A stretch of 64,000 nt of DNA, from NCBI RefSeq assembly GCF_023701485.1, contig NZ_JAMQBK010000083.1, forward strand, positions 1-64,000, written 5' to 3'. The notes under the pieces were generated by a model, which was given only the letters and a program-made list of their open reading frames with translations, had not been told where the DNA came from and did not search any database. Positions 9,767 to 51,867 of the stretch are shown here, one piece after another. The position numbers were made by a program, and so were the translations under genes. The stretch is from Aporhodopirellula aestuarii (lineage in GTDB: Bacteria > Planctomycetota > Planctomycetia > Pirellulales > Pirellulaceae). How positions within the stretch are numbered: position 1 is the first letter of the stretch; every line of letters begins with the position of its first letter.

Positions 9767-9814
9767 GTCAGAGGATTGGCCTCAGATTACCGCTCAAGCA
9801 CACGACTACTTGAT

Positions 9815-9843
9815 CGCTCGAACCGGTGAAGCCGGATCGAGCG
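9815..9843. terminator. Hairpin between convergent prs and acyltransferase genes
   Basis: Twelve-base arms (9815-9826 and 9832-9843) pair with one mismatch around a five-base loop. It sits exactly between two convergent genes, so it may end transcription in both directions. The T-rich run after it (ttgtgggtcttt) is weak, which lowers certainty. Confidence 0.55.
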
Positions 9844-9881
9844 TTGTGGGTCTTTGACAACGGAACAGCCATTCCACGCGA

Positions 9882-11039: not shown

Positions 11040-11281
11040 GTGACGAAAACCGCTAGTCTGTTTGAAAGCGGCAATTTAGCTATCAAACGAATCCCCTCTC
11101 CTGCGGTTTTTCGCCACAGCGTTCCGGATCAGCACAACCTTTCGGGTCCGGCCGGTTGAGAGGCCGGCGCCGATTACCGCGATGGTTTGGAAAACGCTTG
11201 ATTTGCCTGCCCTTTCGCATTTTCGTCGCTTGCACGACACTCTACGGTTTGCCTTTTGGACTTTTTTCAGAACAATCCGGC

Positions 11282-11286
11282 GGAGG
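11282..11286 (+). promoter_or_regulatory. Shine-Dalgarno sequence that fixes the apgM start
   Basis: GGAGG lies seven bases before the ATG at 11294. This decides between that start and the in-frame start at 11156. Confidence 0.7.
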
Positions 11287-11293
11287 AATCGCC

Positions 11294-34154: not shown

Positions 34155-34168
34155 CGATATCGCCTCAG

Positions 34169-34744: not shown

Positions 34745-35230
34745 TTCGATTCCCCGATTGAGTTGTAAGAACTGGTCAAATGGCGACCACAGCCACGACG
34801 TTTTTGGCTAACGGGTCAGTGGTCGACAAGATTACGGAAGTGTGAACGACCGCGTCGCGACACTTCGATCGTTCAATAGGCATCTAAAGTGTTGTGGGTG
34901 CGTTGTTTGCGAACAATGCATTGGTAACCCGAAGCGTGAGCGAGCGATTCTTCGTAACTCCTTCCCTCGCTCACGCTTCGGTTTACCTTTTGCTCGAAAG
35001 TGCGCTGTCCAGCTAAGGTCCAATGCAAAGGACGAAGAATCCTCACGCTTCGTGTGATCACCGTCGACGGACGACTCGATGCGTGGGTAGCGGCCGAGCC
35101 AATCATGACGAACTCCGGTTCCTTCGTGGAATACCCTACGGTGCTTATTGAAAGAGTCGCGGGTGTCGTCGATTTGCAAAATCGTGAGTGTGTTTCGTTC
35201 ATACACATCGACCCGAGGCTTCTAGTCGAT
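34745..35230. other. Gene-free region with a large inverted repeat
   Basis: About 490 bases separate the dsrE-like gene from copy 2 of the transporter. No frame is protein-like. A strong inverted repeat lies at 34923-34987 (listed apart), and a further loose copy of its cacgcttcg core lies near 35043. It may hold a promoter for the copy 1 genes. Confidence 0.45.
34923..34987. repeat. Inverted repeat with 22-base arms, dispersed-repeat type
   Basis: The arms at 34923-34944 and 34966-34987 pair with one mismatch in 22 around a 21-base loop. Their core reads cccgaagcgtgagcgag. I believe related palindromes occur across Rhodopirellula genomes, but I cannot check that here. It may fold in RNA or mark a mobile palindromic repeat. 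Confidence 0.75.
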
Positions 35231-35842
35231 TCAGCGTCCTCCAAGCGTCTCGATAGCCACGAGGACAATGACTAATACCGCCGCAAACGCAACCACGAGC
35301 CCGGTTCGATTCACCGGGATCACATCATGCAACGTCAGCTTTCCTCGGTCGCCGATTGGGTCGATATGGCGGCCGATCCAGCCGGATGCTTCGGCAAAGA
35401 GGTACGACCCACCGATCATCCCGATCATCATGGCAATCGCGTCGTAGTTGCCTTGCCCCAGTGCCGCGGCGCCGGTGCCTGGACAATAGGCGGACAGTGC
35501 AAAACCAACTCCAAAGAGCAGCCCTCCGATAATGTTCGAAGCGTAACGCGTCGGCTTAATATGCAATTCAACGAGCCCGGCACGGTGCATAAAGTGAATC
35601 CCCAACGCACCCACCACGACTGCCGACAACATGACCTTGAGGACGGTAAAGTCGACCAACATGAGCTGCCCAATCAGGACATGGAACTTCGCCACGCCGC
35701 CCTTCTGCAACAGGAACCCAAAGATGAGCCCAAACACCGCACCCAGCACCAAGGTTTTCCCAGGGGCAGCCTCGGGCTGAGAGTTCACAGGCGGAGAGGC
35801 CTTGGCCTTCGTCTCGGGAGGTTGTTCAGTGATTGTTGCCAT
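35231..35842 (-). CDS. YeeE/YedE-family sulfur transporter, C-half, copy 2
   Basis: The 203-residue membrane protein is the paralogue of the gene at 33017. It shares LIFGFLLQKGGVAKFHVLIGQLMLVDFTVLKV and YCPGTGAAALGQGNYDA. The second Cys of copy 1 (AACGEG) is an Ala-Leu-Gly here, so the sulfur site differs. Its N-terminal 30 residues are polar. AGGAG lies eight bases before the start. The N-half gene is 61 bases upstream, so the two are probably one transporter. The partition of roles between the two copies is unknown. Confidence 0.88.
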   Translation of the reverse strand: MATITEQPPETKAKASPPVNSQPEAAPGKTLVLGAVFGLIFGFLLQKGGVAKFHVLIGQLMLVDFTVLKVMLSAVVVGALGIHFMHRAGLVELHIKPTRYASNIIGGLLFGVGFALSAYCPGTGAAALGQGNYDAIAMMIGMIGGSYLFAEASGWIGRHIDPIGDRGKLTLHDVIPVNRTGLVVAFAAVLVIVLVAIETLGGR

Positions 35843-35903
35843 CTCGCTATCTCCTACGGTTCCAAATGGTTCACCGTCAATTGACTGTTTCGGATTGATA
35901 TAA

Positions 35904-36464
35904 TTAGGTCGCGTACATCAGCATCGCGGCGACGATCCCACCGATGAAAAAACAGATCGCGGAGACCCACGATCCGATCGCTAACTGCAACGTGCCGCTG
36001 ATCCCATGTCCGCTCGTGCAACCTCCGGCCATTCTGGCGCCAAATGCCATCAAGACACCGCCCGCTAAAGTGACGAGAGTGCGAAGTAGATAACTGTCGC
36101 TACCAAATCGGTCTTGCCACATTGCGGGCAGAAACTTTCCGGTCAGCTCGCCACCCGTCCAGGCGGCAAGAAACGCCCCAGCGACGACAGCGAGCACCAG
36201 CATCAACTCCCACCCAACCTTAGGCGGCTTGCCCTCAAAATACTTGAGCGACCGCGTGTGCTTGGGAGCCACCGCCAAGCCGATCATTCCGGCAATCCGT
36301 GCATAAGCAGTTGATGCCCCGATCGGCTTGTTCGAAAAATAGAAGGTCAGCATGGACAGGACACCGATCAGAGCGCCCACTAGGTAGGGTGACCATGCGG
36401 GTCCGGAGTATTGAAGCGGATCGACATCACCGAGCCCGCCTAATCTGTGCATGAACTCATGCAT
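35904..36464 (-). CDS. YeeE/YedE-family sulfur transporter, N-half, copy 2
   Basis: The 186-residue membrane protein is the paralogue of the gene at 33621. It shows WSPYLVGALIGVLSMLTFYF and the identical GCTSGHGISGTLQLA. It overlaps the end of the MBL/rhodanese gene by eight bases, which supports coupled expression. AAGGAG stands eight bases before the start at 36464. With the C-half just downstream it forms the second split transporter. The N-terminus (MHEFMHRLGGLGDVDPLQYSG) is soluble and contains two His. Confidence 0.88.
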   Translation of the reverse strand: MHEFMHRLGGLGDVDPLQYSGPAWSPYLVGALIGVLSMLTFYFSNKPIGASTAYARIAGMIGLAVAPKHTRSLKYFEGKPPKVGWELMLVLAVVAGAFLAAWTGGELTGKFLPAMWQDRFGSDSYLLRTLVTLAGGVLMAFGARMAGGCTSGHGISGTLQLAIGSWVSAICFFIGGIVAAMLMYAT

Positions 36465-37872
36465 GACTGAGCTCCTTCACTTTCTCAACCGGATAGCCCG
36501 CAGCGGTCCACGCCCCCCAGCTACCAGGAACATTCGACACGTGCTTGAAACCGCGTGACTGCATCAAGCTCGACGCGATGCTGGCTCGATAACCGCTCGC
36601 ACAATACGTCGCGTAATGCTGATCCTTGTCCAATCCGTTGATGCGATCTCGCATATCAGCGACGAAGCAATGCTCCGCACCGGGGACATGTCCTCCTTCC
36701 CATTCATCCGGGCCTCGCACGTCGAGAATCGTTGGGCCGGTACCGTTGGATTGATGATCGCGCAGTTCGTGGACCGGCATCTGCTCCAATCGCTCCAGCG
36801 GGAAGCCCGAGCTTTGCCAGGCTTTCATCCCTCCCGCCAAATAGCCTGCAAATTGACTGTGGCCGCTGCGTACGATCAATCGCTGAACCCGCTCGGCATC
36901 TTCGTCATCGTCCAAAACGAGCAACAGACGTTGGTCCAGGTCAAACATTTGTCCGACCCACGCGGACATCTCAGGTCTCGATCCGATGTTGATACTTCCA
37001 GGAACATGCCCGCCGCCGAACGCGGTCATGCTTCGCGTGTCGATGAGTGCGACGCCGGGCTCGCGAGAAACCTTCCGGAATTCGCTCGGTGGCAACGCCG
37101 GAATCGTTGGCAACCGGTCCATGATGTCCGGCCCTTTCGCGTTGACTTTCTTGAGTTCCGGATAGTGCCACGGGACCGGCGGTGCATCTCCGACAACGAA
37201 CTCGCGGAACGCTTCGTAATCTGGGAACGACAGGAATTTGTTCGTTCGCCGCTCGTAACCGACGGTACTGTTGAGCCGGTCACCAATGTCGGCACCGCAT
37301 GCCGAACCCGCACCGTGCCCCGGATAAATCGTGACGTAGTCTTCGAGCTTGAGATAGAAGTTATAGAGCGTGTCGTAGAGAGACCGTGCCAGTTGCTCGG
37401 TTTCGCCCGAACCGAGCAAGTCAGGCCTTCCCGCCGAGCCCACGAACAGCGAATCGCCCGTAAAGACAGCCCAAGGTGTGTCAGCGTGCTTCGCCTCACT
37501 TAGCAAAAACGACATATGCTCCGGCGTGTGCCCAGGCGTATGACGAGCGGTCAACATGAACGATCCGAAATCAAACGACTGGCCGTCGGCTACCGGTTCA
37601 GCATCAAACTGGTAGTTGGCTTGCACGTCGCTCACGAAAACTTTCGCCGTTCCAACACGCTGGGCAAGTGAACGAGCGCCCGAGACAAAGTCGGCGTGGA
37701 TATGTGTTTCGAAAACGTGGGTGATGGACACACCATGCTTTCTTGCGAGTTCTTCGTAGATTTCGACGTCCGTCCGGGGGTCGATCACTGCCGCTTTGCC
37801 TGTACCGGTATCGCCGACGAGGTAGGAAAGCTGAGCGATGCCATCCGTCAAAACTGTTTCAAGTACAAACAT
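36457..37872 (-). CDS. Persulfide-dioxygenase-like MBL protein with two rhodanese domains
   Basis: The 471-residue protein joins a metallo-beta-lactamase fold (about 1-240) to two rhodanese domains (about 260-350 and 370-465). The MBL part has the metal motif THIHADF, then GHTPEHMSF, FTGDSLFVGSAGRPDLLG and YPGHGAGSACG, as in ETHE1-type persulfide dioxygenases. The first rhodanese lacks the active Cys (VLDDDEDAE near residue 322), and the second keeps it (CASGYRA, near residue 424). The protein likely oxidises persulfide and passes on thiosulfate sulfur. AAGGAG lies eight bases before the ATG at 37872. An in-frame start 29 codons upstream lacks that support. Confidence 0.9.
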   Translation of the reverse strand: MFVLETVLTDGIAQLSYLVGDTGTGKAAVIDPRTDVEIYEELARKHGVSITHVFETHIHADFVSGARSLAQRVGTAKVFVSDVQANYQFDAEPVADGQSFDFGSFMLTARHTPGHTPEHMSFLLSEAKHADTPWAVFTGDSLFVGSAGRPDLLGSGETEQLARSLYDTLYNFYLKLEDYVTIYPGHGAGSACGADIGDRLNSTVGYERRTNKFLSFPDYEAFREFVVGDAPPVPWHYPELKKVNAKGPDIMDRLPTIPALPPSEFRKVSREPGVALIDTRSMTAFGGGHVPGSINIGSRPEMSAWVGQMFDLDQRLLLVLDDDEDAERVQRLIVRSGHSQFAGYLAGGMKAWQSSGFPLERLEQMPVHELRDHQSNGTGPTILDVRGPDEWEGGHVPGAEHCFVADMRDRINGLDKDQHYATYCASGYRASIASSLMQSRGFKHVSNVPGSWGAWTAAGYPVEKVKELSHA

Positions 37873-38323
37873 CTGATTACTCCTTTTGGTGGTATCGGTA
37901 TTTCCAACACCACCAGGAGCGAATCGCATGCCATTGTCGACGTGCGGCGGGGCTACCAAGTCATTACCAAGACGATCGACGGTACCGGGGGCAACGCGAC
38001 ACTCGCAACGACGGACACGACTGATCTACCGCATCAACTCCGAAATTTACAGGCGAGGGAAATCGCTAAGACTTTCGCGGCCTACACCTGCGGATGCGGT
38101 GCGGAGAGAGGGGGCGGCGTGATGAGAATCCGGCACGGCAGTTGCAACTCGATGTACCCACGGGACGTCGATTGCTTTAGTGCTCTTTTTAGCGGAACGG
38201 CGTGAGCCGTCCGGACCCGCGTTACCGGACGGCTCGCGCCGTTCCGCTACTTTTGGAATCCCGCAGTAATGAAATCGACGTCCCCTGGGTACTGTGCCCT
38301 GCCATGTTATCTCCTTCACTTCG
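37873..38323. other. Upstream region of the sulfur operon, with a strong hairpin
   Basis: About 450 bases with no convincing gene. A short inverted repeat (tggtggt 37887-37893 / accacca 37909-37915) lies 15 bases before the sulfur operon start, possibly an operator or a 5'-leader hairpin. A much larger hairpin sits at 38191-38248. Confidence 0.45.
38191..38248. repeat. Near-perfect palindrome with 24-base arms
   Basis: Arms at 38191-38214 and 38225-38248 pair with one mismatch in 24 around a ten-base loop. The arm begins agcggaacggc and ends gccgtccgg. It sits between genes on opposite strands and could end transcription from either side or be a dispersed palindromic repeat. Confidence 0.8.
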
Positions 38324-38522: not shown

Positions 38523-41500
38523 TTATTCGGCGAGCCTTGCAATCATCTCGACCAACTTACGTTGATCTAGCGGTTTGGTGGTGTAGTCGCTGCATCCGGC
38601 GGCCAGACACTCGTCACGATCACTCTTCATCGCGTTGGCGGTTAAGGCGAGGATGGGCAACACGCAACCGCGACTGCGAAGCTGCCTTGATGCTTCGTAA
38701 CCGTCCATCACTGGCATTTGCATATCCATCACGATCACGTCGATCCGCGGTGATTGTTCTGCCATGACAAAATTGACCGCTTCTTTCCCGTTGGTCGCCG
38801 TGAAAACTTTACCGCCGGCTTTCTCAATAAAATGTTGAGCGAGGTAACGGATGTCACGCCGATCGTCCACGACAAGAACGTTTGCCGTTAACGTGATTTC
38901 GTCGTGGGAGAGATCCGACGCCTCGACAACCGAGATATTGGGTTCGATCAATTGACCAGGCTTCATGACGTCCAGTGAGAGTGTAAAACGACTCCCCTTG
39001 CCGAGTTCGCTCTCGACGGTAATCAAGCCACCGAGAGCTTGTGCGAGACGGCGGCAAATCGCCAGCCCCAAACCGGTACCACCGAACGATCGCGTTGACG
39101 TGTTGTCGACTTGCACAAACGGTTCGAACAAGGAATCGAGCTTTTCCGATGGGATCCCGATTCCCGTGTCGACGACATCGAACTGAAGCCGATTTGCCGA
39201 CGCGTCGAAGTCGACGTTCAATCGAACTTCACCTTCATCGGTAAACTTGATTGCGTTTCCGACGAGGTTCAACAACACCTGGCGCAAACGCACCGCGTCA
39301 GTATCGATTGTTTCGGGAACCGGACCGGTGAACGCAATTCGCAACGGAATATCTTTCTCGGCTGCGCGAACATCCATCAGTGAACGAATCTCTCCGACGA
39401 TCGCGTCAGGACGAACCGGTTGGGTATCAATCTCCATTTTTCCGGCGTCGATCTTGGAGAGATCCAAGATATCGTTGACGATATTCAACAAGAAATGTCC
39501 GTTACGTCGAATCGTATCAACGACCTGCAAATTGTCAGGATCAACGAGATGATCCTTCAAAATATCTGCGTGTCCCAAAATCGCTGCCATCGGCGTGCGA
39601 ATTTCATGCGACATGTTCGCCAAAAACTCACCACGCGAGCGATTCGCCGCCTCAGCGGACGTCATGGCTTGCTGTAACGAACGCTCGAAATTCTTTCGAT
39701 CCGTGATGTCCTGAACCGTGCCAACGATGCGTTGGAGGTGTCGGGCATCGCCCTTCTCTTCGCGAATGACTCGCCCCGTATCGACAACCCATCGGATCGC
39801 CCCATCGCTTCGCACGATGCGGTATTCCTTTTCATAGCGTTCGGAACCATCCGTTCGAAAAGCATCCGCCATGATCGTTTCGAATGCTTTCAGATCATCC
39901 GGGAAGATGAGCTGGCGGACCATCTGGAGCGTCGGCGTTATTTCGGGAGAGATGCCATAGATCGCATACAGTTCGGGAGACCACACCAATCGGTTTCTGA
40001 TAGCGTCGTAGTCGTGAGTCCCAAAACCGGTTGCCTCGGCAGCGAGTCGCAACCGACTCTCGCTGGCACGCATCGTATTTTCGGCGAGGCGTCGCTCATG
40101 ATCATCAATTACCGAACCGATGTAGCCTTCAAATTCGCCAGCCTTGTTGAATCGGGGACGGCCCAAGTCGACGGCATGCCGATACTCACCACTCGCCGTT
40201 CGCAAACGGTATTCCGTCACGAAATTCACATGAGCCTCCGCGGCCGACAAAAACTCTTTACCGGCACGTTGTCTGTCGTCGGGGTGAGTCGCGTCGGTCC
40301 ACCCCAACCCCAAACCTTCCTCTTCGGTTTGACCGGTGAACTCGTACCATGAACGCGACAGGTAAGTGCACATGTGATCGCGATCCGTAATCCACAACAT
40401 TGCCGGTGATGCATCGGCCATCGTGCGAAAGTACTTCTCGCTCTCGCGGATTCTCATCTCGACATTCTTGCGTTCCGTCACGTCTGCAACGACCCCCAAG
40501 AAGGAATCGAGATTGGCCGACTCGTCGCGGACGATGCGTCCCAACATGTGCAACCAATGTGTCGCCCCGTCAGGACGCACCACGCGGAATTCTTCGTTGT
40601 AGACGTCACCAGTTTGAATGGCCGTTTTCATCGCCTCATCGACGCGGTCGCGGTCTTGCGGATCGACGCGTTTCACGAATTCGCGGGCTACCATGGGTGC
40701 CTCGGCGTTCATCCCGAACAGCGAACGGATATCCTGGGGCGAATGGACTTGGCCAGTCTTTAAATCCCACGACCAGACCGCGAGTCCGGTTGCTGACAAT
40801 GCCGCCTGGAGGAATTGCTGTGACTCGATCAATTCACGCTTTGCCGCGTTTTGCTCGGTAACATCACTTACTTCGATGATTGTCGAGTGTGGTTTGCCGT
40901 CGCGATAGATCGGTCGCGCCGAGCAAAGCACATCGAACGGCGTGCCGTCTTTACGAAAGAACACGTCTTCGTGGAAGCGGATCAGGCTGTCCTGAGGAAG
41001 CGCTCGGTCGATCGGGCACTCGGTGATCGGAAACGGTCGACCATCGGGGTAGTGGTGATGCACCAACTCATGCAACGGCGCAGACTCCAACTCTTCGCGA
41101 CTGAAACCAGTCATGTCGAGCCAAGTTTGATTGCAGTAGATCAAGTATCCCGATGCATCCATCATGATCAATGCTTCGGTTGAGTTCTCCGCAATCGTGT
41201 GGACGAGTTCATTGCTATCCCGAAGCGATTGCTCCCACTTCTGACGCTCGGTGACGTCGTAGTAGTAGCAAACAACGCCATATTTGTTGTCGGGTAGGGA
41301 AATCCGCTTGATCTTCCAATCGTACGATTCAATCGTTTTGCGATCGGCGCGTTCCTCGATCAGCAACGGTGCGGTGTATGGTTCACCGGTTTCCAACGTA
41401 TGGCGAAAACGCTCAATCGCCTCGGTCGCAAACGGCTCCGGCCAAATCGCACGCATCACATCCGGGAAACCGCGACCGACGACAGGCATTTGCGACGAGA

Positions 41501-41642
41501 ACGTTTCCCGAGCACCGTCACTGATATAGCGAATTTTGAATTCGTGATCGACGATATAAACGCCAAACGGATTCCCCTCAACGACTTGTCGAAAGATTTC
41601 GTGTGATTGCTGAATCTGATCATCAATGGAAATCTGATTCAT
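38523..41642 (-). CDS. Hybrid histidine kinase with five PAS domains and a receiver
   Basis: The 1039-residue cytoplasmic protein has five PAS domains (about 10-140, 145-270, 272-400, 400-525 and 530-660). A HisKA domain follows with the phospho-His in ANMSHEIRTPM (near residue 678), then a HATPase domain (NLVGNAIKFT, DTGIGIP, GGTGLGLAI), then a receiver domain (VLVVDDRRDIRYLAQ, VIVMDMQMPVMDGYE). It should autophosphorylate and pass the phosphate to its own receiver, then probably to a separate Hpt. It starts with ATG four bases inside the previous gene (ATGA overlap), and GGAGG lies five bases before it. It is the last gene of the block, so its levels follow the KaiC-like gene. Ligands of the PAS domains are unknown. 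Confidence 0.92.
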   Translation of the reverse strand: MNQISIDDQIQQSHEIFRQVVEGNPFGVYIVDHEFKIRYISDGARETFSSQMPVVGRGFPDVMRAIWPEPFATEAIERFRHTLETGEPYTAPLLIEERADRKTIESYDWKIKRISLPDNKYGVVCYYYDVTERQKWEQSLRDSNELVHTIAENSTEALIMMDASGYLIYCNQTWLDMTGFSREELESAPLHELVHHHYPDGRPFPITECPIDRALPQDSLIRFHEDVFFRKDGTPFDVLCSARPIYRDGKPHSTIIEVSDVTEQNAAKRELIESQQFLQAALSATGLAVWSWDLKTGQVHSPQDIRSLFGMNAEAPMVAREFVKRVDPQDRDRVDEAMKTAIQTGDVYNEEFRVVRPDGATHWLHMLGRIVRDESANLDSFLGVVADVTERKNVEMRIRESEKYFRTMADASPAMLWITDRDHMCTYLSRSWYEFTGQTEEEGLGLGWTDATHPDDRQRAGKEFLSAAEAHVNFVTEYRLRTASGEYRHAVDLGRPRFNKAGEFEGYIGSVIDDHERRLAENTMRASESRLRLAAEATGFGTHDYDAIRNRLVWSPELYAIYGISPEITPTLQMVRQLIFPDDLKAFETIMADAFRTDGSERYEKEYRIVRSDGAIRWVVDTGRVIREEKGDARHLQRIVGTVQDITDRKNFERSLQQAMTSAEAANRSRGEFLANMSHEIRTPMAAILGHADILKDHLVDPDNLQVVDTIRRNGHFLLNIVNDILDLSKIDAGKMEIDTQPVRPDAIVGEIRSLMDVRAAEKDIPLRIAFTGPVPETIDTDAVRLRQVLLNLVGNAIKFTDEGEVRLNVDFDASANRLQFDVVDTGIGIPSEKLDSLFEPFVQVDNTSTRSFGGTGLGLAICRRLAQALGGLITVESELGKGSRFTLSLDVMKPGQLIEPNISVVEASDLSHDEITLTANVLVVDDRRDIRYLAQHFIEKAGGKVFTATNGKEAVNFVMAEQSPRIDVIVMDMQMPVMDGYEASRQLRSRGCVLPILALTANAMKSDRDECLAAGCSDYTTKPLDQRKLVEMIARLAE

Positions 41643-43288
41643 CGTTCCTCCGATGTCTTGACTAGCGCCGCCACCTTTTCCAACATTCGCAACTTGTCGA
41701 TGGGTTTCGAAAGATAGTCGTTACATCCTGCTTCGAGGCACTTGTTCATATCGCCCTGCATCGCATCGGCGGTAAGAGCAATAATCGGACCAGCGTAGCC
41801 GAGTTGGCGTAGATGTCGTGCGGTTTCATAGCCGTCCATGTTTGGCATTTGCATGTCTAACAAAATCAGGTCAAAGAAGATTCCATTCGCGGTCGCCTGT
41901 TTGACCGTTTCGATAGCGAGCACGCCGTCTTCCGCTTCGGTGACCCGTCCGCCAGCGTTGGTCACAATGTGTTTGCTGAGAAAGCGGATGTCGCGGCGAT
42001 CGTCAACAATCAATACGTGAACATCGAGCTCAATCGACTCCGCAGGTTCATTTACCTTCTCCGACTCTTGCCGCCCCCTCGGTTCGATCAACGAAGTGTC
42101 ACTCAACTTGCCCGTCGCGATCGTGAGAGTAAACGTGCTACCTTTGTTGATCTTACTGTCGACTCTGATTTCACCACCCAGCATCGCGGCGAGTCGTTGA
42201 CTGATCGCAAGTCCCAATCCGGTACCACCGAATTGCTGCGTGATGAGGGAGTCGCCTTGGGAGAAAGGTTTGAATAATCGTTCCCGTTGCACCGGCGTCA
42301 TCCCGATGCCGGAATCGCTGATGCCGATTCGCAGTTGGTCTGTGACTGGGTTTGCTGAATCGTCGCCTGTGACAGCGTTTCTCTCGAACTCGACGGTGAT
42401 TTTGACGCTGCCCGATTTTGTGAACTTGATCGCGTTGCCCACAAGGTTGATCAGAATCTGCTTTAAACGTTTGGCATCGCTTTCAATGAACTGCGGGATC
42501 GCACCGGCAAATTTGACATCCAGCTTCAAACCTTTCTCGCTCGCACGCACCTCCATGATCCTGCGCACATCTTCGATCACTCGGGCCGGATCAAACCGCT
42601 CGATATCGATATCGAACTTTCCCGCCTCGATCTTGGACAAATCAAGGATATCATTGATGATGCCTAGCAAAAAATCGCCATTGCGACGGATAGTGGCAAG
42701 ATACCCGAGAGCTTCTTCGTTTTCGATCAGCCCAGTCATCAATTCCGCATAACCAAGAATCGAGGTCATCGGCGTGCGAATTTCGTGTGACATGTTGGCC
42801 AGGAATTCACTCTTGGATGCATTTGCCAGCTGAGCTTTGAGCAAGAGGTCTCGAACCTCATACTGCCTGGCGCGGTCACGCAGCTTCGCCTGGAGCGTAC
42901 TTACCAAGAGGGCGATCCTTAGCGGCCGTTCGATCAACGTCACGTGGCCAATGGTTAACAATTCGGTAATGACGCGAGGCGGTGTTTCACGCTGAGCAAG
43001 CAGGACCAGGATCGGCACATCCGACCAGGACGGTTGTTCATTAACCGCTTGGCGAAGACGCGCGGTCGCTTCGGAAGTGAGAAATTCTTGTGCGATCAGC
43101 ACAACACCCGCACCCTCACGAATTCGAGAGGTGACCTCGTAGACCGACGTCACAATCTCGACCGGCACCCCGTGTTCACGCAGAACCTGATCGCAGTACT
43201 TCGCGTCTTGAGGTGTGGGCGCCAGCACGGTGACCGTCTGGCTATCGCCGTGTTTTGGCTGCAGTTTGATCTTGGGTAGCTCGCTCAT
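41639..43288 (-). CDS. Hybrid histidine kinase with N-terminal pseudo-receiver
   Basis: The 549-residue protein begins with a receiver-like domain (about 15-135) without the usual phospho-Asp signature (ending GHVTLIERPLRIALLVSTLQAKLRDR). A helix leads to HisKA with ANMSHEIRTPM (His near residue 168), HATPase (LINLVGNAIKFT, ISDSGIGM, GGTGLGLAI) and a C-terminal receiver (VLIVDDRRDIRFLSKHI, phospho-Asp in ILLDMQMPNMDGYE near residue 476, then SKPIDKLRML). It overlaps the KaiC-like gene by four bases (ATGA) and the PAS kinase by four, so all three are probably translated together. No membrane segment is visible. The pseudo-receiver may bind the KaiC-like protein, which is an inference only. Confidence 0.92.
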   Translation of the reverse strand: MSELPKIKLQPKHGDSQTVTVLAPTPQDAKYCDQVLREHGVPVEIVTSVYEVTSRIREGAGVVLIAQEFLTSEATARLRQAVNEQPSWSDVPILVLLAQRETPPRVITELLTIGHVTLIERPLRIALLVSTLQAKLRDRARQYEVRDLLLKAQLANASKSEFLANMSHEIRTPMTSILGYAELMTGLIENEEALGYLATIRRNGDFLLGIINDILDLSKIEAGKFDIDIERFDPARVIEDVRRIMEVRASEKGLKLDVKFAGAIPQFIESDAKRLKQILINLVGNAIKFTKSGSVKITVEFERNAVTGDDSANPVTDQLRIGISDSGIGMTPVQRERLFKPFSQGDSLITQQFGGTGLGLAISQRLAAMLGGEIRVDSKINKGSTFTLTIATGKLSDTSLIEPRGRQESEKVNEPAESIELDVHVLIVDDRRDIRFLSKHIVTNAGGRVTEAEDGVLAIETVKQATANGIFFDLILLDMQMPNMDGYETARHLRQLGYAGPIIALTADAMQGDMNKCLEAGCNDYLSKPIDKLRMLEKVAALVKTSEER

Positions 43289-44808
43289 GCATTCGTTCCG
43301 TCGCGACCGAGCAGGTCTTCACGCTTCCCTTGGAATGCCGGTGTGCCGCTCAGCACACCGTGAAATTCCGTTAGTGGACGCCCAATCTGCAAGCCATTAT
43401 GCGTCAAGGCAAATTCGCGGATGGTGCGTTCGTGTCTGCCCGTCCGTTTCTTCACCATCGATATTGCTTGACGGATTTCACCCGACGTTTCGAAGTACCG
43501 AAACAACAGGACATTGTCTGCCATATAGCTGGCATCCACTGGCGTCTTCATCCCTGTTCCCAGCATTCCGTGTTGGGCTGTGATGAGGAACGACACAATC
43601 CCCTGACGGCCGAGCATTTGCAGAATGTCGTTGAGTTGGATCAACAGAAATTGTTCATGCGGCATTGAATTGAGAAAACCGTTGAGGCTGTCGATCGTGA
43701 CGACGGTCACCTTTCGCCCTTGCTCGTCAGTTTTGATCGCCTCACGGACTTGCGACGCGAATTCGGAAGGCGCAGTCTCGCCCGACGCAAAATGCCGTAA
43801 TTCAATCAGTCCTTCGTCGATATACCGATCGATATCAAAACCCAGTCCGCGGCTGCGTTGTAAGAACGAATGCTTGCTTTCCTCGAACTCGAAAAAGACA
43901 GCTCGTTCGCCTCGCTCAGCCGCCGCAACTGCAAACTGAGTCGCTGTCGATGACTTACCGACACCGGCCGGACCGAGCAACAACGTGCTGGTGCCTTCCA
44001 TCAGCCCACCACCGATAAGGGTATCTAATTCCGCGTTGCCACTGCTGATGTCTTCCCCGCTAGACTGCCATTGAGCGTTCTCGATTGTTTTGCGAGGAAA
44101 CACTTGCATCCCACCACGTTTGAGCAAGACATCGTGTGTTCCACCGATGAAATCTCGACCACGATGTTTGATCACTCGCAGGTAGCGACGTTCAGCGCCG
44201 TAGTGGTTCAAGGATTGCTCCAACCGAATCACACCATGAGCGATGCTTTGGAGTTGTTGGTCATTGAGGTCGGTTGCCAAGTCCCCGCCCGATTTATCGT
44301 CGAGCATGAGCGTGGTGCATCCGCGACCGACGAAGAATTGTTTGAGGGCGAGGATTTGACGGCGGTAACGGAGTGGACCTTGGGCGAGAAGCCTCATCTC
44401 CGACAGCGAATCAAACGCGATTCGTCTTGGTTGAATCGCTTGAATTTTCTTGAGTACGCCTTCGATCGTTGCACCAAGTTCGATTTCCGACGGCTCGAAC
44501 ATCGTGTATTGAGCTTGCTCCTGGGTCAGTTTCTCTTGATCGACAAGTTCATGGATGTCGATCCCATCGAGTGACCAGCCATGAGACGCCGCAACTCCCT
44601 CAAGTTCCTCGCGGGTTTCCGACAGACTGACGTAAAGTCCCCGCTCGCCTTTTGCGACGCCATCGAGCAAGAACTGGATGGCCAGAGTTGTCTTACCCGT
44701 GCCGGGGTAACCTTCGATCAGGTATAGACGATCGGCCGTGAAGCCGCCGTGCATGATATCGTCGAGTGTGCGGATGCCAGTGCTGATTTGTTGTTCGGGT
44801 TGGGTCAT
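43285..44808 (-). CDS. KaiC-like double RecA-fold ATPase
   Basis: The 507-residue protein has two RecA-type ATPase domains as in KaiC. CI spans about 10-240 with the P-loop GYPGTGKTTLAIQFLL (near residue 36) and CII about 250-480 with GPAGVGKSSTATQFAV (near residue 283). CII keeps the KaiC-type acidic pair (VFFEFEESKHSF), while CI has LYVSLSETREE. The tail (MVKKRTGRHERTIREFAL) is KaiC-like, but the KaiC autophosphorylation pair is not evident. It is not necessarily a clock: no KaiA or KaiB gene is near. It likely hexamerises and couples ATP use to the two kinases fused by ATGA overlaps downstream. I chose the start at 44808; 23 upstream residues in frame are unlike the family. Confidence 0.9.
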   Translation of the reverse strand: MTQPEQQISTGIRTLDDIMHGGFTADRLYLIEGYPGTGKTTLAIQFLLDGVAKGERGLYVSLSETREELEGVAASHGWSLDGIDIHELVDQEKLTQEQAQYTMFEPSEIELGATIEGVLKKIQAIQPRRIAFDSLSEMRLLAQGPLRYRRQILALKQFFVGRGCTTLMLDDKSGGDLATDLNDQQLQSIAHGVIRLEQSLNHYGAERRYLRVIKHRGRDFIGGTHDVLLKRGGMQVFPRKTIENAQWQSSGEDISSGNAELDTLIGGGLMEGTSTLLLGPAGVGKSSTATQFAVAAAERGERAVFFEFEESKHSFLQRSRGLGFDIDRYIDEGLIELRHFASGETAPSEFASQVREAIKTDEQGRKVTVVTIDSLNGFLNSMPHEQFLLIQLNDILQMLGRQGIVSFLITAQHGMLGTGMKTPVDASYMADNVLLFRYFETSGEIRQAISMVKKRTGRHERTIREFALTHNGLQIGRPLTEFHGVLSGTPAFQGKREDLLGRDGTNA

Positions 44809-44901: not shown

Positions 44902-47900
44902 TCATGTTAGCATTTCCGAAACCTTCTGAAGCATCGCCGCTTTGTCGATCGGTTTGGACAGGTAGTCGTTGCAACCCGCTTCCAAACACTTATTCATGTC
45001 GCCCTGCATGGCGTCCGCGGTGAGGGCGATAATCGGACTGGTGTAGCCGAGCGTTCGCAGTTTTGCCGCGGTCGAGTAGCCGTCCAAATTCGGCATTTGC
45101 ATGTCCAACAAAATCAGATCGGGGCAGTCGCCCGTGCCGAGGCACTCGGTGATGTAATCCACCGCCAGCAGCCCGTCCTCGCATTCGTCCACTCTCGCTC
45201 CGGCGGTCGTCAGAATGCGTTTGCTCAAAAACCGGATATCGCGCCGATCATCCACGATCAATACGTGACATGATAACTGCGTGGATCCACCGCCGCTCGC
45301 CACGGTTTCCGTGGTGTTGCTGGCTTCGATACCGCCATACTCGACCAACTCAGACTCGGCAACTTCCCCGGTCGAGATTCTGACGGTGAAAGTGCTACCG
45401 ACGCCTTCAGTACTGCTCGCCGTGATTGCTCCTCCCAGCATTTCTGCGAGTCGCTGACTGATCGCCAGCCCCAAGCCGGTGCCGCCAAAGCTACGGGTGA
45501 CACTCGCGTCGCCCTGTGAAAACGGTTTGAACAATTTGTCCATCTGTTCATCCGCGATGCCGATCCCCGTGTCAACGACATCAAATTGCAATTGCTGCAA
45601 CGCAGATTCGAACCGGACGCGAATCTGGACGCGGCCCTGCTTCGTGAACTTGATCGCATTGCCAACAAGATTGATCAAAATCTGCTTCAGCCGTTTCGAG
45701 TCGGAGTTGATCAACTTGGGAAGTTTGCCGTGATACTCAACGCTCAAGGCTAGGTTTCTCTCGCTGGCGCGCACATCCATAAAGCTTCGCACATCTTCGA
45801 TCAATCGATACGGGTCGAAGCGTTCATGCTCCACATCCAGTTTGCCGGCTTCGATTTTGGACAGGTCGAGAATGTCGTTGATGATATCGAGCAAGTATCC
45901 GCCGTTGCGACGGATCGTTTGCAAATGTTGCTTCGCTTCTTCTTTCTCAACCAAATCGCCCAGAAGATCGGCATAGCCCAAGATTGCCGTCATGGGCGTA
46001 CGAATTTCATGCGACATATTGGCGAGAAATGCGCTCTTGGATTCGTTAGCCGCAACGGCAACGGCACGAGCTTCTTGCAACGCCGCTTGAGCTTCGTGTC
46101 GGTCGTGAGCATCGATCACGGATCCGACGTAGCCGGCAAACTCACCCGATTCATCGAACCGCGGTTGCCCGGCGTCAATGGCCCAACGGTAGCCGCCATC
46201 GGCTGTTCGCAATCGAAAGTCCAACTCGAATGGCTCGTGTCGCTCCGCAGCAGCCAGAAAAGCTGCCCGTGTGGCCGCTTGGTCGTCCGGATGGACCGCT
46301 TCGATCCATCCCAGCTGCAACCCTTCCAATTCGGGTTGTCCCGTGAAGTCGCACCAACGCTGTGACAAAAACGTGCATTGATGGTTATGGTCGCTCACCC
46401 AAATCATTGCGGGAGCCGCGTTTGCCATGATGCGGAACCGTTGTTCGCTGTCACGAATCCGTTGCTGGGTCTCCTTTTGTTCGGTGATATCCCAGTTCAA
46501 TCCGTGCATCGCGGCCACGCTACCGTCGGGGTTTCGGATGACGGTGCACACCGCGGCGAGCCAACGGATACTTCCGTTGGGCAACTTAACTCGAAACTCC
46601 GCATCGTAGTCGTCTTGGCCCGCGATGGCAGTTTCCCACATCTCTTGCAGCATCGGCAAATCGTCAGGGTGGATCCGTTCTAAAAAGAACTCCGGTGACG
46701 GATCCGCGACCTGCGGTGTTCCCAGCAATTCGAACAACTTGGTATCCCAATGGCTCTTTTCAGGGGTCCACTCCCAAGCTGCCATTCGCCCGGCTCGCAG
46801 TGCCATCGAGACGCGACGTTCGTTCTCCATCAACTGTTGCTGCGCCCGGTAACGGTCTCGAATATCAACGCCCGATGGGATCAGGAACTCAATCTCACCA
46901 TTGTCGTCCTTCACGGGCGCGATCATGAAATCAATCATCACGCCTTCATCGCCGTGGGCGAACAGCGAAACGTCGTAACGAACGACTTCGCCCGCCATCG
47001 CCCGCCGCATGGCGTCACGCATCTTGGCGGCAACAGCCGGGTCGTAACTCCACCAAGGCGCCTCGGCAAAGTGTTTACCGATCACGTCTTCACGCCGCGT
47101 TCGTGCGATCTTCAACGAACGGTCGTCAACCTCCAACAGGATACCGTTGCGATCGATAACGCCGACGAGCCCGAGCTGGTTGTTGATCACGCGACGCAAG
47201 TGTGCTTCTCGATTTGCCAGTTCCTCCTCCGACCGCGCCCGTTCGATCCGAATACCGACGCGATCGGCGACTTCCTGCAACAGCCTGCGTTCGTCGGCTT
47301 GCCACGGGTGCGGTTCGGCGTGAAGGGCAGAGACAACAAACTTGGTGCCTCGATCGGTCACATACGCAGAATTGCAAAACGCGCCGATATCGAACGCCCG
47401 AAAATTCGCGGTGAGTCGCTCGTCACGCTGCCGCCCCTGGGCGTCGCCAGAAAAAACTTGTTGTCCGGCGATCAAATCCGCCCGCTCGGCGTCGTCATGG
47501 AAATCCCGTACCGAGTGCGTCCCCACCATGCTCGGCCCGTCGCCTTGATGATAGTCGCAGAGAATATCCGCAACTTCGCCCTGTTTGTCGAACTCAACAA
47601 ACAAACAGCGAGCCAATCCGAGGTGTTCTGCGGTCAGCTTAGTTGCCACAGCCATCAAATCATCAACGGAAGACAACGGCACGAGCCGCGTTTGCAGATC
47701 GGAAAGAAACGCGAGATTCAGTTCGTCGACCTTACGCTCCGAAATATCTTGCACCAATCCGGTCACCTGCAACGGTTCACCGCCGGCATCCCGGTGAATG
47801 ACCCCACGCTCCTCGACCCAAATCACGCGACCGTCACTCGCTCGTACCAAGCGAAATTCCACAAAATGGTCGTCAGTGTCACTGGCAAGTTCCTCCTCGA

Positions 47901-50900
47901 CCCACTCCCTGACGTTCGTCCGATCGTCAGGATGAACGAGTTGCCAAAAACTGGTCACCGTGCCATCAAATTGTTCTTGGCGACAGCCGTACATGGCGTA
48001 CACCATTTCCGACCATTCCACCTTCCCGGAACCAACGTCCCATTTGAACGAACCCATTTTCCCAGCGTCGAGTGCGAGGGTCAGGAACTGCTCTCGATCG
48101 ATGACCGCGGCTTCCGCCGCACGCCTTTCACTGATATCGACTCCCGATGGAATCAGGTGGGTAATCGAACCGTCACTGGACCGGACGGGACTCAGCATGA
48201 AATCGATCGTCATGCGTGTATCACCCGCCATGCGAACATCTACGTCGTAGCGAACCACCTCACCCGCGGCCGCCCGTTGCACAGCGACCTGCAGATTGGC
48301 GACCGGCTCTTCGTCGAAGTTCCACCAGTAACAGTCCCAGAATTTTTTGCCGATGACGTCGCTCCGATCGATTCCCGCCGCCTTGATCGCCACCGCATTG
48401 GCTTCCAAGAGCGTGCCATCGACATCCAACACTCCGATAAAGAAGAGTGTGTTGTCGATCACGCTACGGAGATGAGATTCTCGGTCAGTGAGTTCCAACT
48501 CCCAGTGCTTACGATCCGTGATATCGCTCGCAACGGCGGTAATACTCAACGGCCGATCGAACTCATCGCGATCGATCACGCCACGTCCCGACGTCCAAAT
48601 GATCCGGTGGTCATTCCCGCGAATGATCCGAAAGTCCATTTCGTACGTTTTGCAGGTCCCCGCAAATGCAGCCTCGAGCCGCTCGGCAACGTACCCTCGA
48701 TCGTCGGGATGGATGACATCGAGAAAACCGGCTTTCGTCGCGGTAAACTGATCCTTTGAATACCCGAAAATCTCGAAAAGCTGATCGGACCAGGTCACGC
48801 GGTCAACGCTAATGTCCCAATGCCAAGTCCCCAGTCGTCCGGCCTCAAGTGCCAAGTTTAAGCGTTGCTCGCGATCGACCAGCCGTTGCTCGGATTCCTT
48901 TCTCGCAATGCACTGGGCGATGGCATCCGCCATCGGGATCAATTGTTCAAAGACTTCCGGTGCCAACGGATGTTTGGCAAAGAGTGCGACAACACCGACG
49001 ACTCGATGCTCAACCACTAAAGGAATTCCGGCAAACGCGACCATACCTTCCCGCGCAGCCCACTGAGGATCACTAATGTTGGGATCGTGAGACACGTCGT
49101 TGGTCAATAGCGGCTGCTGCGAGGCAGCAATTCGCCCGATTTTCCACTCACCCAACGGAACTCGGCTGTGTGGACCGTCGAGGTGAGTATACATCCCGGC
49201 GCTGGCGGTCAGTTCGAGCACTTGATCTTGCTCGTTTAGCAACCAAACCCGGGCGAAGGCGGCATCGAGCCCCTCGACAATCCTGCGACAACACTTGTCG
49301 AGAATTTCATCCAACGGTGCCTCGCCCGCCAGCGACACCGCGAGCGACGCGTGAAGCGCTGCCAAGCCGGCCCGTTCCAGGAGAATCGCATCCGCTCGTT
49401 TGCGTTCGGTAATGTCACGTAAATAGCCGGTAAAGAAGGGCGTGCCATCACGACCGTGCGAAACGCTAATTGCCAATTCGACAGGAATCAAACGGCCGTC
49501 GGCTCGTTGGGCCGTCAATTCCACTCGCTGGCCCAACAAATCGGAATTTCCGGAGCGAAGATACCGAGACAATCCCTGGCGATGAGCGTCGCGGAATTCT
49601 TCGGGGATGATCACGTCGGCTAACGGTCGACCGACCACGTCGGCGGCCACGTATCCGAACGTCCGCTCTGCTGCCGGATTGAAATCAACGATCCGACCGG
49701 CGGTATCCATCGTGATGACGCAATCAAGCGCCGATCGAAGAATCGCTGACTTGCGAGCCTCTTCGTCACGAATCGTGTCGGTCAGTCGACGTTGTCGAAT
49801 GAATTGCCCGATTTCGTTTCCAACCGCCCCCAGCAGTTGAAGCAATTCGGGCTCTCGCGTCAGCATTCGAGTGGTGAAGATCTCAATGACACCCTTAAAC
49901 TTGCGACCGACGACGATCGGAGTCCCAACGCCGCTGGCTATCCCACTTAGCTTGGCGGCCTCTGCTCGGACGAATCCTTTCTTATTGGGAACATCTTCAA
50001 ACCAAACCGGCTCACGATCCTTCCAAGCCTGCCCAGGTAATCCCTGCCCCATCTTGAGCCGTGTGTTGCGACTGACGTCGACGAATGGCTGCAACGTGCT
50101 GTCAATCGCGTCGGCCTCAACGCACTTCAAGAACTCGCCACGCTCATCCACCCGCCACAGCAAGCAAACTTCCGCAGAAAGCGAGACCCGAAGCGCATTG
50201 AGAACCTTGCGAATCACCGTCTCAAAGGAATCAGCATCGGCTAATAGTTTCGTGACCGCATGCGCGGCGGCCAATCGCATGCGGAGCCGATGTTGCTCGG
50301 TGATTTCATAAAACGTTACGACGAGCCCATCGCGATTCGTTTCATCCCCGTAAGGTTGAATACGACGAAGGAACCAGCGGTCGTCTTGCGTTTCCACCTC
50401 ATCTTCAACTGGCCCGTTTTTGACGAGCGAAACGGCATTCGGAATCGGTGGCATCGCAGTCGCGGTGTGCGATACGGTCTGCAGCGGGCGACCAACATCG
50501 TTCGATGTCACATGATAAATCGACGTCACACCTGGAGTAAAACTTCGAATGCACAAGCTTTCATCGAGGAATAGCGTGGCAATATTTGTGCTATCCAACA
50601 GATACGATTGATCGGATTCCGAAGGCGCGGCACGAACCGGCGAAACGTGACCCTTTGCCGGCGGCATTACCAGACCGTTGTCGTTTGACTGTTGCTCCAC
50701 CGGTTGCGTCAATTGTTCCAGACGCATGCTGGCGGCCGACAACTTTCGCTGGAGTTGTTCGATTTTTTTCCACTGGGCGAATTGTTTGCGAATTGTCGCA
50801 GCGATTTTGGCCGCAGGCATGACGAAATCGGCCACGGTGGTTATCGCACCCATCGCTCCCATGGCAGATTCGGCATTGTGAGCGAATGTCATCCCACCAG

Positions 50901-51339
50901 CATCGCTAATCGAATTCAATCCGAACGTGCCGTCACTCTCGGAAGCGGACAGGATGACTCCCACGGCGTACTCACCGCGCTGCCTAGCAATGGAATAAAA
51001 GAGATGGTCGATCGAGTTGGCTTCGAGATTCGAACTTTCGGGATGTGCGATGATCGCGTTGTCGCCGTCCAATTCCAACAGCGATTGGGACGGAGAGATA
51101 TAGACGCACCCCGCCGCGATCTCTTCACGATCACTGACCTCCACAATCGACAGCGACGTTTGATTGCAGAGAAAGTTGTGCAGTTGCGATCGGGTTTCGG
51201 GATCGACATGCGGAGCCAACACGATCGCCATATCGGCTGCATCATCAAACGCGGCTACCAGCTTTTGGAACGCCTCCACTCCATCCGCAGAGACTCCAAC
51301 ACCAACGACACATGGCGTGAAATGTGATTGATCACTCAT
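44902..51339 (-). CDS. Giant hybrid histidine kinase with CheB-like domain, eight PAS and three GAF domains
   Basis: This 2145-residue protein has, in order: a CheB methylesterase-like domain (about 6-187), with the Ser in VGVSADG, His in APHVDPETR and Asp in ASESDGTFGL kept; a PAS of the CheB/CheR-associated kind (about 240-350, NIATLFLDESLCIRSF, RWFLRRIQPYGDE); GAF (355-515); PAS (520-645); GAF (650-813); three PAS (815-1201); GAF (1202-1371); three PAS (1372-1753); HisKA with SHEIRTPM (His near 1777); HATPase (LINLVGNAIKFT near 1893); and a receiver (phospho-Asp in ILLDMQMPNLDGYS, near 2080). The CheR methyltransferase that normally follows CheB in such fusions is missing. The Met at 51339 precedes the domain; 31 hydrophobic upstream residues in frame (from 51432) could instead form a membrane segment. 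It is the second gene after Hpt. Confidence 0.9.
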   Translation of the reverse strand: MSDQSHFTPCVVGVGVSADGVEAFQKLVAAFDDAADMAIVLAPHVDPETRSQLHNFLCNQTSLSIVEVSDREEIAAGCVYISPSQSLLELDGDNAIIAHPESSNLEANSIDHLFYSIARQRGEYAVGVILSASESDGTFGLNSISDAGGMTFAHNAESAMGAMGAITTVADFVMPAAKIAATIRKQFAQWKKIEQLQRKLSAASMRLEQLTQPVEQQSNDNGLVMPPAKGHVSPVRAAPSESDQSYLLDSTNIATLFLDESLCIRSFTPGVTSIYHVTSNDVGRPLQTVSHTATAMPPIPNAVSLVKNGPVEDEVETQDDRWFLRRIQPYGDETNRDGLVVTFYEITEQHRLRMRLAAAHAVTKLLADADSFETVIRKVLNALRVSLSAEVCLLWRVDERGEFLKCVEADAIDSTLQPFVDVSRNTRLKMGQGLPGQAWKDREPVWFEDVPNKKGFVRAEAAKLSGIASGVGTPIVVGRKFKGVIEIFTTRMLTREPELLQLLGAVGNEIGQFIRQRRLTDTIRDEEARKSAILRSALDCVITMDTAGRIVDFNPAAERTFGYVAADVVGRPLADVIIPEEFRDAHRQGLSRYLRSGNSDLLGQRVELTAQRADGRLIPVELAISVSHGRDGTPFFTGYLRDITERKRADAILLERAGLAALHASLAVSLAGEAPLDEILDKCCRRIVEGLDAAFARVWLLNEQDQVLELTASAGMYTHLDGPHSRVPLGEWKIGRIAASQQPLLTNDVSHDPNISDPQWAAREGMVAFAGIPLVVEHRVVGVVALFAKHPLAPEVFEQLIPMADAIAQCIARKESEQRLVDREQRLNLALEAGRLGTWHWDISVDRVTWSDQLFEIFGYSKDQFTATKAGFLDVIHPDDRGYVAERLEAAFAGTCKTYEMDFRIIRGNDHRIIWTSGRGVIDRDEFDRPLSITAVASDITDRKHWELELTDRESHLRSVIDNTLFFIGVLDVDGTLLEANAVAIKAAGIDRSDVIGKKFWDCYWWNFDEEPVANLQVAVQRAAAGEVVRYDVDVRMAGDTRMTIDFMLSPVRSSDGSITHLIPSGVDISERRAAEAAVIDREQFLTLALDAGKMGSFKWDVGSGKVEWSEMVYAMYGCRQEQFDGTVTSFWQLVHPDDRTNVREWVEEELASDTDDHFVEFRLVRASDGRVIWVEERGVIHRDAGGEPLQVTGLVQDISERKVDELNLAFLSDLQTRLVPLSSVDDLMAVATKLTAEHLGLARCLFVEFDKQGEVADILCDYHQGDGPSMVGTHSVRDFHDDAERADLIAGQQVFSGDAQGRQRDERLTANFRAFDIGAFCNSAYVTDRGTKFVVSALHAEPHPWQADERRLLQEVADRVGIRIERARSEEELANREAHLRRVINNQLGLVGVIDRNGILLEVDDRSLKIARTRREDVIGKHFAEAPWWSYDPAVAAKMRDAMRRAMAGEVVRYDVSLFAHGDEGVMIDFMIAPVKDDNGEIEFLIPSGVDIRDRYRAQQQLMENERRVSMALRAGRMAAWEWTPEKSHWDTKLFELLGTPQVADPSPEFFLERIHPDDLPMLQEMWETAIAGQDDYDAEFRVKLPNGSIRWLAAVCTVIRNPDGSVAAMHGLNWDITEQKETQQRIRDSEQRFRIMANAAPAMIWVSDHNHQCTFLSQRWCDFTGQPELEGLQLGWIEAVHPDDQAATRAAFLAAAERHEPFELDFRLRTADGGYRWAIDAGQPRFDESGEFAGYVGSVIDAHDRHEAQAALQEARAVAVAANESKSAFLANMSHEIRTPMTAILGYADLLGDLVEKEEAKQHLQTIRRNGGYLLDIINDILDLSKIEAGKLDVEHERFDPYRLIEDVRSFMDVRASERNLALSVEYHGKLPKLINSDSKRLKQILINLVGNAIKFTKQGRVQIRVRFESALQQLQFDVVDTGIGIADEQMDKLFKPFSQGDASVTRSFGGTGLGLAISQRLAEMLGGAITASSTEGVGSTFTVRISTGEVAESELVEYGGIEASNTTETVASGGGSTQLSCHVLIVDDRRDIRFLSKRILTTAGARVDECEDGLLAVDYITECLGTGDCPDLILLDMQMPNLDGYSTAAKLRTLGYTSPIIALTADAMQGDMNKCLEAGCNDYLSKPIDKAAMLQKVSEMLT

Positions 51340-51531
51340 TACAACGCCCATCAGAAAAGAAACGCAGCACAGGGCCCCAAAAAGAACGACCGTATCGAAA
51401 ACAGCAAAGATGACTGACCAGAGAAAGGGCAATAGCGATAGTCGTCAATACCTTTGACGCACAAGTTGAATTCTCGTCAGTCCGCAAAGCTCCCACGACG
51501 GCCTCAACCCGAAAGTGAAATGGAAACAGAG

Positions 51532-51867
51532 TCAAGTGCCGACTGCCCGAATTCGTTCCGTAAGTGAAAGGATATCAGCACGGATGCCATCCAGACTGGT
51601 TTGGGCAACAGCAAGGTCACCGCCAAACGCCGCTGATTCAACATTCCGCAGCCCGTTCACCGCAGCCCCCTCCTCAAACGTCGCCAACATCCCCTTCAGT
51701 GCATGAGCACTCGCTCCGGCTTGATGTGCATCTCCATTTTGGATCGCTTTGGTGAGTCGCTTTAACTCGATCGGAACGTCTTCCCCGATCATCACCGCCG
51801 TAGAAGCCAACAATTCGAGATCACCGCCACAGCGTTTGAGGGCTTCAGGAAACTCGCGCTCATTCAT
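51532..51867 (-). CDS. Stand-alone Hpt phosphotransfer protein
   Basis: The 111-residue all-helical protein is an Hpt domain: MNEREFPEALKRCGGDLELL, then QAGASAHALKGML with the phospho-His at residue 55. It should take phosphate from receiver domains of the hybrid kinases and pass it on or return it. It lies 192 bases upstream of the giant kinase on the same strand. All three hybrid kinases in the block end in a receiver, and this is the only Hpt nearby, which makes it the likely shared hub. No final response regulator with an output domain is in the block. Confidence 0.9.
   Translation of the reverse strand: MNEREFPEALKRCGGDLELLASTAVMIGEDVPIELKRLTKAIQNGDAHQAGASAHALKGMLATFEEGAAVNGLRNVESAAFGGDLAVAQTSLDGIRADILSLTERIRAVGT

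Follow-up and report, generated by a model that had tools for sequence, protein, structure and literature searches.

A 64,000-nucleotide stretch of the planctomycete Aporhodopirellula aestuarii (contig NZ_JAMQBK010000083.1, positions 1 to 64,000; hereafter the window, from a source assembly of 9.07 Mb) carries a gene for a KaiC-like ATPase followed by genes for two hybrid histidine kinases, H1 and H2. Comparison across genomes identifies the conserved unit within this arrangement as a pair and not a triplet: the KaiC and the hybrid kinase H1, whose N-terminal domain, here called psR, is a putative pseudo-receiver. The window pair is a planctomycete copy of a pair known since 2011, with a lineage-specific extra kinase. 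We propose, with a probability of about 0.5, that a KaiC ATPase working without KaiA and KaiB gates the histidine kinase through an inferred docking on the psR. For most KaiC homologues from outside the cyanobacteria no function is known, and KaiA and KaiB are missing. A KaiC type that lies nearly always beside one non-catalytic domain while the class of the kinase changes offers a specific handle on such clock-free proteins, and the value of the present analysis lies in a sharper hypothesis and a wider range rather than in a new kind of system. The pair is laid out as follows:

43285..44808, minus strand: KaiC-like two-domain ATPase, 507 amino acids from the ATG (Pfam, NCBIfam, PDB alignment)
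43285..43288, minus strand: ATGA overlap of the KaiC stop and the H1 start, read from the sequence
41639..43288, minus strand: H1, hybrid kinase with the order psR-HisKA-HATPase-REC, 549 amino acids (Pfam, profile)
42851..43240, minus strand: psR domain of H1, spanning about residues 17-146; constant companion of this type of KaiC (profile A2)

The association was first surveyed in 60 genomes. Fourteen of them, that of the window included, have orthologues of the KaiC (at least 400 bits), at 15 loci in all; strong psR matches (profile A2, at least 175 bits) likewise number 15 and fall in these 14 genomes, and at all 15 loci the two are adjacent. Profile A2 was built from 14 sequences that include surveyed ones, so recovering them is expected, and the informative part of this survey is that nothing comparable to the psR is found elsewhere in these genomes. 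Two weak matches (28-29 bits; G054 and G042) were excluded from the 15. Among 324 genomes sampled from the phylum, all nine KaiC above 600 bits (again with the window's own) adjoin a psR, and for seven more distant KaiC (205-247 bits) no psR match was found in their loci with 1.5-kb flanks.

Searches that started from the psR led to the same association. The phylum sample yielded 10 further loci, eight with KaiC and two without (G207, G235), and 300 genomes from the order of G383 yielded 14 psR loci in 12 genomes. Twelve of these 14 have a KaiC of over 600 bits directly upstream; the other two show none in the 16-17 kb examined. In total, KaiC adjoins the psR at 35 of 39 loci found in this way, which leaves four orphans; absences are soft, as per genome only four KaiC or 11 psR candidates were scored in the phylum search and 12 in the order search. 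The two proteobacterial orphans are complete kinases, and the two planctomycete ones have no HATPase match: each of the latter (L110, 1875-3356 in G207; L111, 7400-9601 in G235) consists of the psR, a HisKA remnant and a REC, with no KaiC nearby. On plasmids, 291 PLSDB records match the KaiC and 217 the window psR, and all 11 loci retrieved from the best 60 of the 291 show the pair.

Junctions could be compared at 38 loci, namely 25 planctomycete, 12 proteobacterial and one on an IMG/VR contig. A psR kinase adjoins the KaiC on the same strand at every one of them, eight (L065-L072) having been selected by their psR. The two genes overlap by four bases at 15 loci and by one base at seven, and the rest lie between a gap of 16 bases and an overlap of 59, counts that favour overlaps because the script took the start codon nearest the KaiC stop. 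ATGA overlaps are common in bacteria, and by themselves they are no proof of coupled translation or close stoichiometry, which the initial annotation had read from them. Viral contigs in IMG/VR hold a KaiC-psR pair and a psR fragment (L098, L138); L138 also has phage-like open reading frames (ORFs), and misbinning or a chimeric contig is possible there.

What kind of domain is the psR? By Pfam, H1 consists of HisKA, HATPase and REC behind an N-terminus of about 150 residues to which the full-length scan assigned no family. Searched against the PDB with hmmsearch (E up to 1), the psR profile matched 29 distinct sequences, 27 of them response regulators or receivers and two named 'sensor protein', with a best match at E 0.0037; neither KaiB nor SasA is among these 29. 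When the profile of 38 psR was compared with one of 24 receiver domains from the same kinases, the score was 28.1 (34.9 in the other direction) over 117 columns, the controls reaching at most 15.0 in 50 column shuffles and 11.8 with a reversed profile. The corresponding comparison with four KaiB gave 13.7, within the shuffle range (up to 19.1).

The residues of phosphorylation appear to be lost. The aligned phospho-Asp column holds A in 18 psR, T in 14, G in three, V in two and S in one, and Asp in none of the 38; the two columns that follow are Glu-rich, the first of them holding E (24), Q (12) or D (2). The DD pair of receivers is A/P in the psR, and the receiver Lys is Arg in 33 of 38, while D28, P86, W88, S89, P92, P122, R139 and Q142 are invariant. 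Judged from these alignments, the psR is a pseudo-receiver, homologous to receivers and devoid of their phosphorylation residues. For RtaNt, the N-terminal domain of the kinase described in 2011, identities of 19% to a receiver, 16% to SasA and 10% to KaiB were given (De Luca et al. 2011; PMC3164672). Two points appear new relative to that account: by profile comparison the domain is receiver-like rather than KaiB-like, and it lacks the phospho-Asp in all 38 members and is carried by HisKA, HWE and HisKA_3 kinases alike. We also considered the psR and RtaNt as a KaiB-like domain of the SasA type with a thioredoxin fold and rejected this, on sequence grounds only, as the KaiB score lies within the shuffles.

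The psR is the only constant domain of these kinases. Behind it stands HisKA (in the window and others), HisKA_3 (L049) or HWE (L119), the last in a Loktanella kinase without REC that has a separate REC gene next door, and the PAS domains between psR and kinase vary by locus from none to several. In a tree of kinase cores (33 rows) the H1 core groups with those of L054 and L055 (100/98), and the three fall within a set of 13 that includes the cores of giant kinases like the one encoded upstream of the pair (96/89). The psR kinases of seven other members of the genus (L038-L044) group (99/95) inside a clade of the H2 type (100/100). By this tree the psR sits, within one genus, on two kinase lineages, one giant-like and one H2-like.

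These observations bear on an alternative in which the psR acts only in its own kinase, binding a small ligand like ShkA, and the KaiC is co-expressed and has another target. Direct fusion of the psR to the kinase would agree with this, as would the four psR loci without KaiC nearby and the fact that the pseudo-receivers of ShkA and CikA inhibit their own kinase (PMC12632262). We consider it unlikely nonetheless, given the near-strict one-to-one adjacency of the psR and this KaiC type and the lack of any other constant kinase domain.

The KaiC itself retains what an ATPase needs. Its listed ORF starts at a TTG upstream of the chosen ATG. Pfam KaiC (PF06745) matches two stretches, so that both halves are represented, and residues 6-492 align to the solved KaiC 8zn5 (E 3.7e-52). 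Walker A, Walker B and a catalytic Glu are present in both halves; across 38 KaiC the Walker Lys, the Walker Asp and one catalytic Glu are retained in both halves without exception, and in the CI half S replaces the first Glu of the usual pair in 32 of 38. The score for NCBIfam circ_KaiC (178.6) is below the cut-off of 546.25. At the phosphosites, which we number by what we take to be the KaiC positions T426, S431 and T432, the window protein reads T-S-Y. The T426 equivalent is T in 21 and S in 10 of the 38, the S431 equivalent S in 30 and T in eight, and the T432 equivalent Y in all. Two KaiC-psR pairs outside the 38 (L152, L153) have Gly-Phe at both phosphosites. Elsewhere, one locus (L051, G041) carries tandem KaiC-like genes (8660-10087 and 10135-11796) with a kinase downstream.

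The initial annotation had noted that KaiA and KaiB are missing from the window, and this holds for the whole genome: neither has a match there, in searches whose controls recovered KaiA from S. elongatus and KaiB from S. elongatus as well as from G025 and G031. None of the 14 psR genomes has a KaiB. G025 and G031 have two copies each, together with a KaiC of a different type (26-29% identical); at these loci (L053, L052) of KaiB-bearing Planctomycetota a hybrid kinase lies close by.

For the pair described in 2011, De Luca et al. proposed a KaiC-interacting kinase and an hourglass timer (PMC3164672), in which KaiC would autophosphorylate at the equivalents of S431 and Y432 and the paired kinase would read a slow phospho-cycle. 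The S or T at the S431 equivalent, the universal Tyr that follows it, the S, T or other residue at the T426 equivalent and the co-transcription of the two genes in Ramlibacter (PMC3164672) would suit such a timer. A Tyr throughout at the T432 equivalent is at the same time a departure from KaiC, the genome has neither KaiA nor KaiB, and L152 and L153 retain the pair despite their Gly-Phe sites. An hourglass appears rather improbable on this evidence, and the suggestion of the initial annotation that the system may be an ATP-driven switch rather than a clock fits better.

How might such a switch work? We consider that KaiC and the psR belong together because they are conserved neighbours, that a signal can pass to the kinase because the helix motif behind the psR is invariant, and that what is signalled is probably the nucleotide state or a conformation because the ATPase residues of KaiC are intact. 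A KaiC hexamer would dock on the psR of H1, and its nucleotide state (ATP/ADP, or redox and energy status) would alter the psR and the helix that follows it, with the invariant R139 and Q142. This change would raise or lower the autophosphorylation of H1; from H1 the phosphate would move to the kinase's own REC, and perhaps also to an Hpt and to regulators further down. In such a scheme the psR would take, without any KaiB, the role played in cyanobacteria by the KaiB-like domain of SasA or by the CikA pseudo-receiver, and H2 and the giant kinase would be lineage-specific extra inputs to the same relay. More tentatively, the psR might be a plug-in KaiC adaptor that replaces KaiB as well as SasA-type and CikA-type readers, making KaiC an energy-state input for many kinases by gene fusion in Planctomycetota and Pseudomonadota; in the lineage of the window the kinase body behind the psR would then have been exchanged and a second kinase added.

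Several observations weigh against docking and gating by KaiC. At four of the 39 psR loci no KaiC lies within the visible DNA, although L154 and L155 among them hold complete kinases, and in G231 a half-length, one-domain KaiC (342 bits) precedes a HAMP-GAF hybrid kinase that has no psR. Distances among KaiC correlate with those among psR at 0.79 and with those among kinase cores at 0.755, the bootstrap of the difference running from -0.05 to 0.11, and in a 12-row subset the kinase core tracks KaiC better (0.83, psR 0.78); with this non-significant difference, co-evolution adds no support for the KaiC-psR link. The receiver assignment has its own weak points. Pfam returned only sub-threshold receiver matches for one psR member, two AlphaFold models of the psR with alternating strands and helices are poor (mean pLDDT 56.4 and 63.8), and Foldseek with these models found nothing at E up to 0.001, ranking beyond this cut-off a KaiB chain 19th (E 1.1) and a receiver 40th (E 1.9). 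Finally, both the binding of KaiC to the psR and the direction of the signal are what we infer.

The G231 locus (L112, contig C83) also stands as an observation of its own. Its KaiC consists of CI only, 45% identical to the CI of the window, and the loss of CII coincides with that of the psR; as a single case, this would fit a psR that docks on CII.

Could the signal run the other way, with kinase and psR as an input that sets the ATPase state of KaiC, and KaiC as the output? The number of PAS sensors varies among loci, as is expected of input devices. Most psR kinases carry or adjoin a receiver, however, and hence a phosphorelay output of their own (a separate REC at L119), and we regard this direction as very unlikely.

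Around the pair, the window holds further signalling genes:

41639..41642, minus strand: ATGA overlap of the H1 stop and the H2 start, present in the window only
38523..41642, minus strand: H2, hybrid kinase with the order multi-PAS-HisKA-HATPase-REC, 1039 amino acids (Pfam); accessory, not part of the conserved unit
44902..51432, minus strand: ORF of a giant CheB-PAS-GAF hybrid kinase, 2176 amino acids, likely start near 51339 (Pfam)
51532..51867, minus strand: Hpt protein, 111 amino acids, HALKG motif, marginal Pfam score; a candidate link to KaiC and H1

The gene order KaiC, H1, H2 and both ATGA overlaps, with their coordinates on the minus strand, agree with the initial annotation; its unit of one KaiC and two kinases holds for KaiC and the psR kinase and fails for H2. 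Downstream of H1, a third kinase, sought with a HisKA-type model that would miss HWE or HisKA_3, occurs in the window only (one of the 29 loci where 1 kb or more of downstream DNA is visible; the other nine of the 38 have less). H2 is missing from the locus in the two nearest named relatives by KaiC, Planctomycetes bacterium TBK1r (L054, 86%) and Rhodopirellula sp. SM50 (L055, 85%). These came from a scan of named-genome contigs with a single protein, a thin survey that gave three loci only, the third being a metagenome-assembled genome labelled Herminiimonas (L056) with a KaiC 51% identical. A search of planctomycete genomes for the gene order, which the initial annotation had suggested, finds the pair recurring and the triplet at none of the other loci with visible downstream DNA.

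By Pfam, H2 consists of PAS repeats, HisKA, HATPase and REC, NCBIfam counting five PAS stretches. Its nearest kin are free-standing kinases without KaiC, at 65% in G011, a genome with neither this KaiC type nor the psR, and at 63% elsewhere in its own genome. It is collinear with the fused kinases that other members of the genus have, beginning at residue 151-159 of the latter (46-48% over 804-818 residues), and a first tree grouped it with fused psR kinases (93/100); a wider tree places it among free-standing kinases. An origin of H2 as the split-off remainder of a psR-PAS-kinase was rejected, the free-standing KaiC-free kinases being closer (55-64%, up to 65%).

The initial annotation further had the unit fed by the CheB-headed giant kinase and the lone Hpt, an arrangement that conservation does not bear out. 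A giant-type kinase lies directly upstream at six of 17 planctomycete loci (the window, L039, L042, L044, L054 and L055); in the window the KaiC start is 93 bases past the end of its ORF. Among kinases of that clade the CheB head is found in the window and in L054 (44%) only, and not on the upstream giant-type kinases of L055, L039, L042 and L044. In one genome a second KaiC-psR pair (L047, contig C147 of G007) has CheB-like genes and a giant hybrid kinase about 4 kb downstream. An Hpt beside the pair occurs in the window only (one of 23 loci searched), and at 24.7 bits, with a Pfam cut-off of 24.6, it is the weakest of 17 Hpt matches in its genome. An obligatory complex of KaiC, H1 and H2 in fixed stoichiometry, with the giant kinase and the Hpt feeding into it, would suit the two ATGA overlaps and same-strand neighbours of the window, and is the least probable of the alternatives given an H2 at one of 29 loci, with KaiC-free nearest kin, and an Hpt at one of 23.

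Elsewhere in the window, sulphur genes lie downstream of H2 on the same strand (33017-37959: three Sulf_transp ORFs, a DsrE-like ORF and a metallo-beta-lactamase-rhodanese fusion). Scans for promoter-like and terminator-like sites gave nothing of note (10 with 7.8 expected, and 13 with 15.7 expected).

How does the pair compare with known Kai systems? Like the KaiC of the KaiABC clock, the window protein keeps two tandem RecA-type domains with intact Walker motifs and the S431 equivalent; unlike it, T432 is replaced by Y. The output arms of cyanobacteria, KaiC-SasA and KaiB-KaiC-CikA, are of the same type in that a small non-catalytic domain of a kinase reads KaiC, as the pseudo-receiver of CikA does (PMC12632262), and as the psR would here by analogy. 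The window differs from them in its lack of KaiA and KaiB, the N-terminal position of the psR, the Tyr at T432 and a circ_KaiC score below cut-off, and from SasA in that its KaiB-like N-terminal domain is seemingly not matched by the psR. Compared with ShkA, position and sequence of the pseudo-receiver presumably differ in the psR kinases. Both have a dead receiver within a hybrid kinase, and ShkA has no described KaiC partner in the available passages of a review of pseudo-receivers (PMC12632262), which name CikA, KaiA and ShkA and do not mention the KaiC-psR group. Purple bacteria such as Rhodobacter sphaeroides have kaiB-kaiC-histidine kinase operons without KaiA (PMC5520375); these carry KaiB, which none of the 14 psR genomes does.

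The closest counterpart is the pair of De Luca et al., who describe a kaiC group whose phosphosites read SY, TY or SF and whose members are always followed directly by one type of histidine kinase, its N-terminal domain being conserved (the 'dark-blue' context), exemplified by the co-transcribed Rta_04330/Rta_04340 of Ramlibacter tataouinensis, a genome without kaiB (PMC3164672). The arrangement, which had at first seemed unfamiliar, was in this respect already described, and the window-specific part is the second ATGA-joined kinase. Searches of the open-access literature found no report of a planctomycete KaiC-psR pair. The link to De Luca et al. is drawn through Burkholderiales pairs (L056, L113, L142-L150) that match the same profiles, not through the Rta sequences, and the primer sites of De Luca et al. 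(PMC3164672) were not found in the loci gathered here; the psR of the Burkholderiales kinases beside KaiC likely belongs to the same family as RtaNt. Shared with that pair are a histidine kinase gene immediately after the KaiC gene (in the window and at all 38 loci), SY at the phosphosites of the window protein (all 38 KaiC have S or T and then Y) and a genome with no kaiB elsewhere. What sets the window apart is its planctomycete host, the second kinase joined by an ATGA overlap and the giant kinase upstream.

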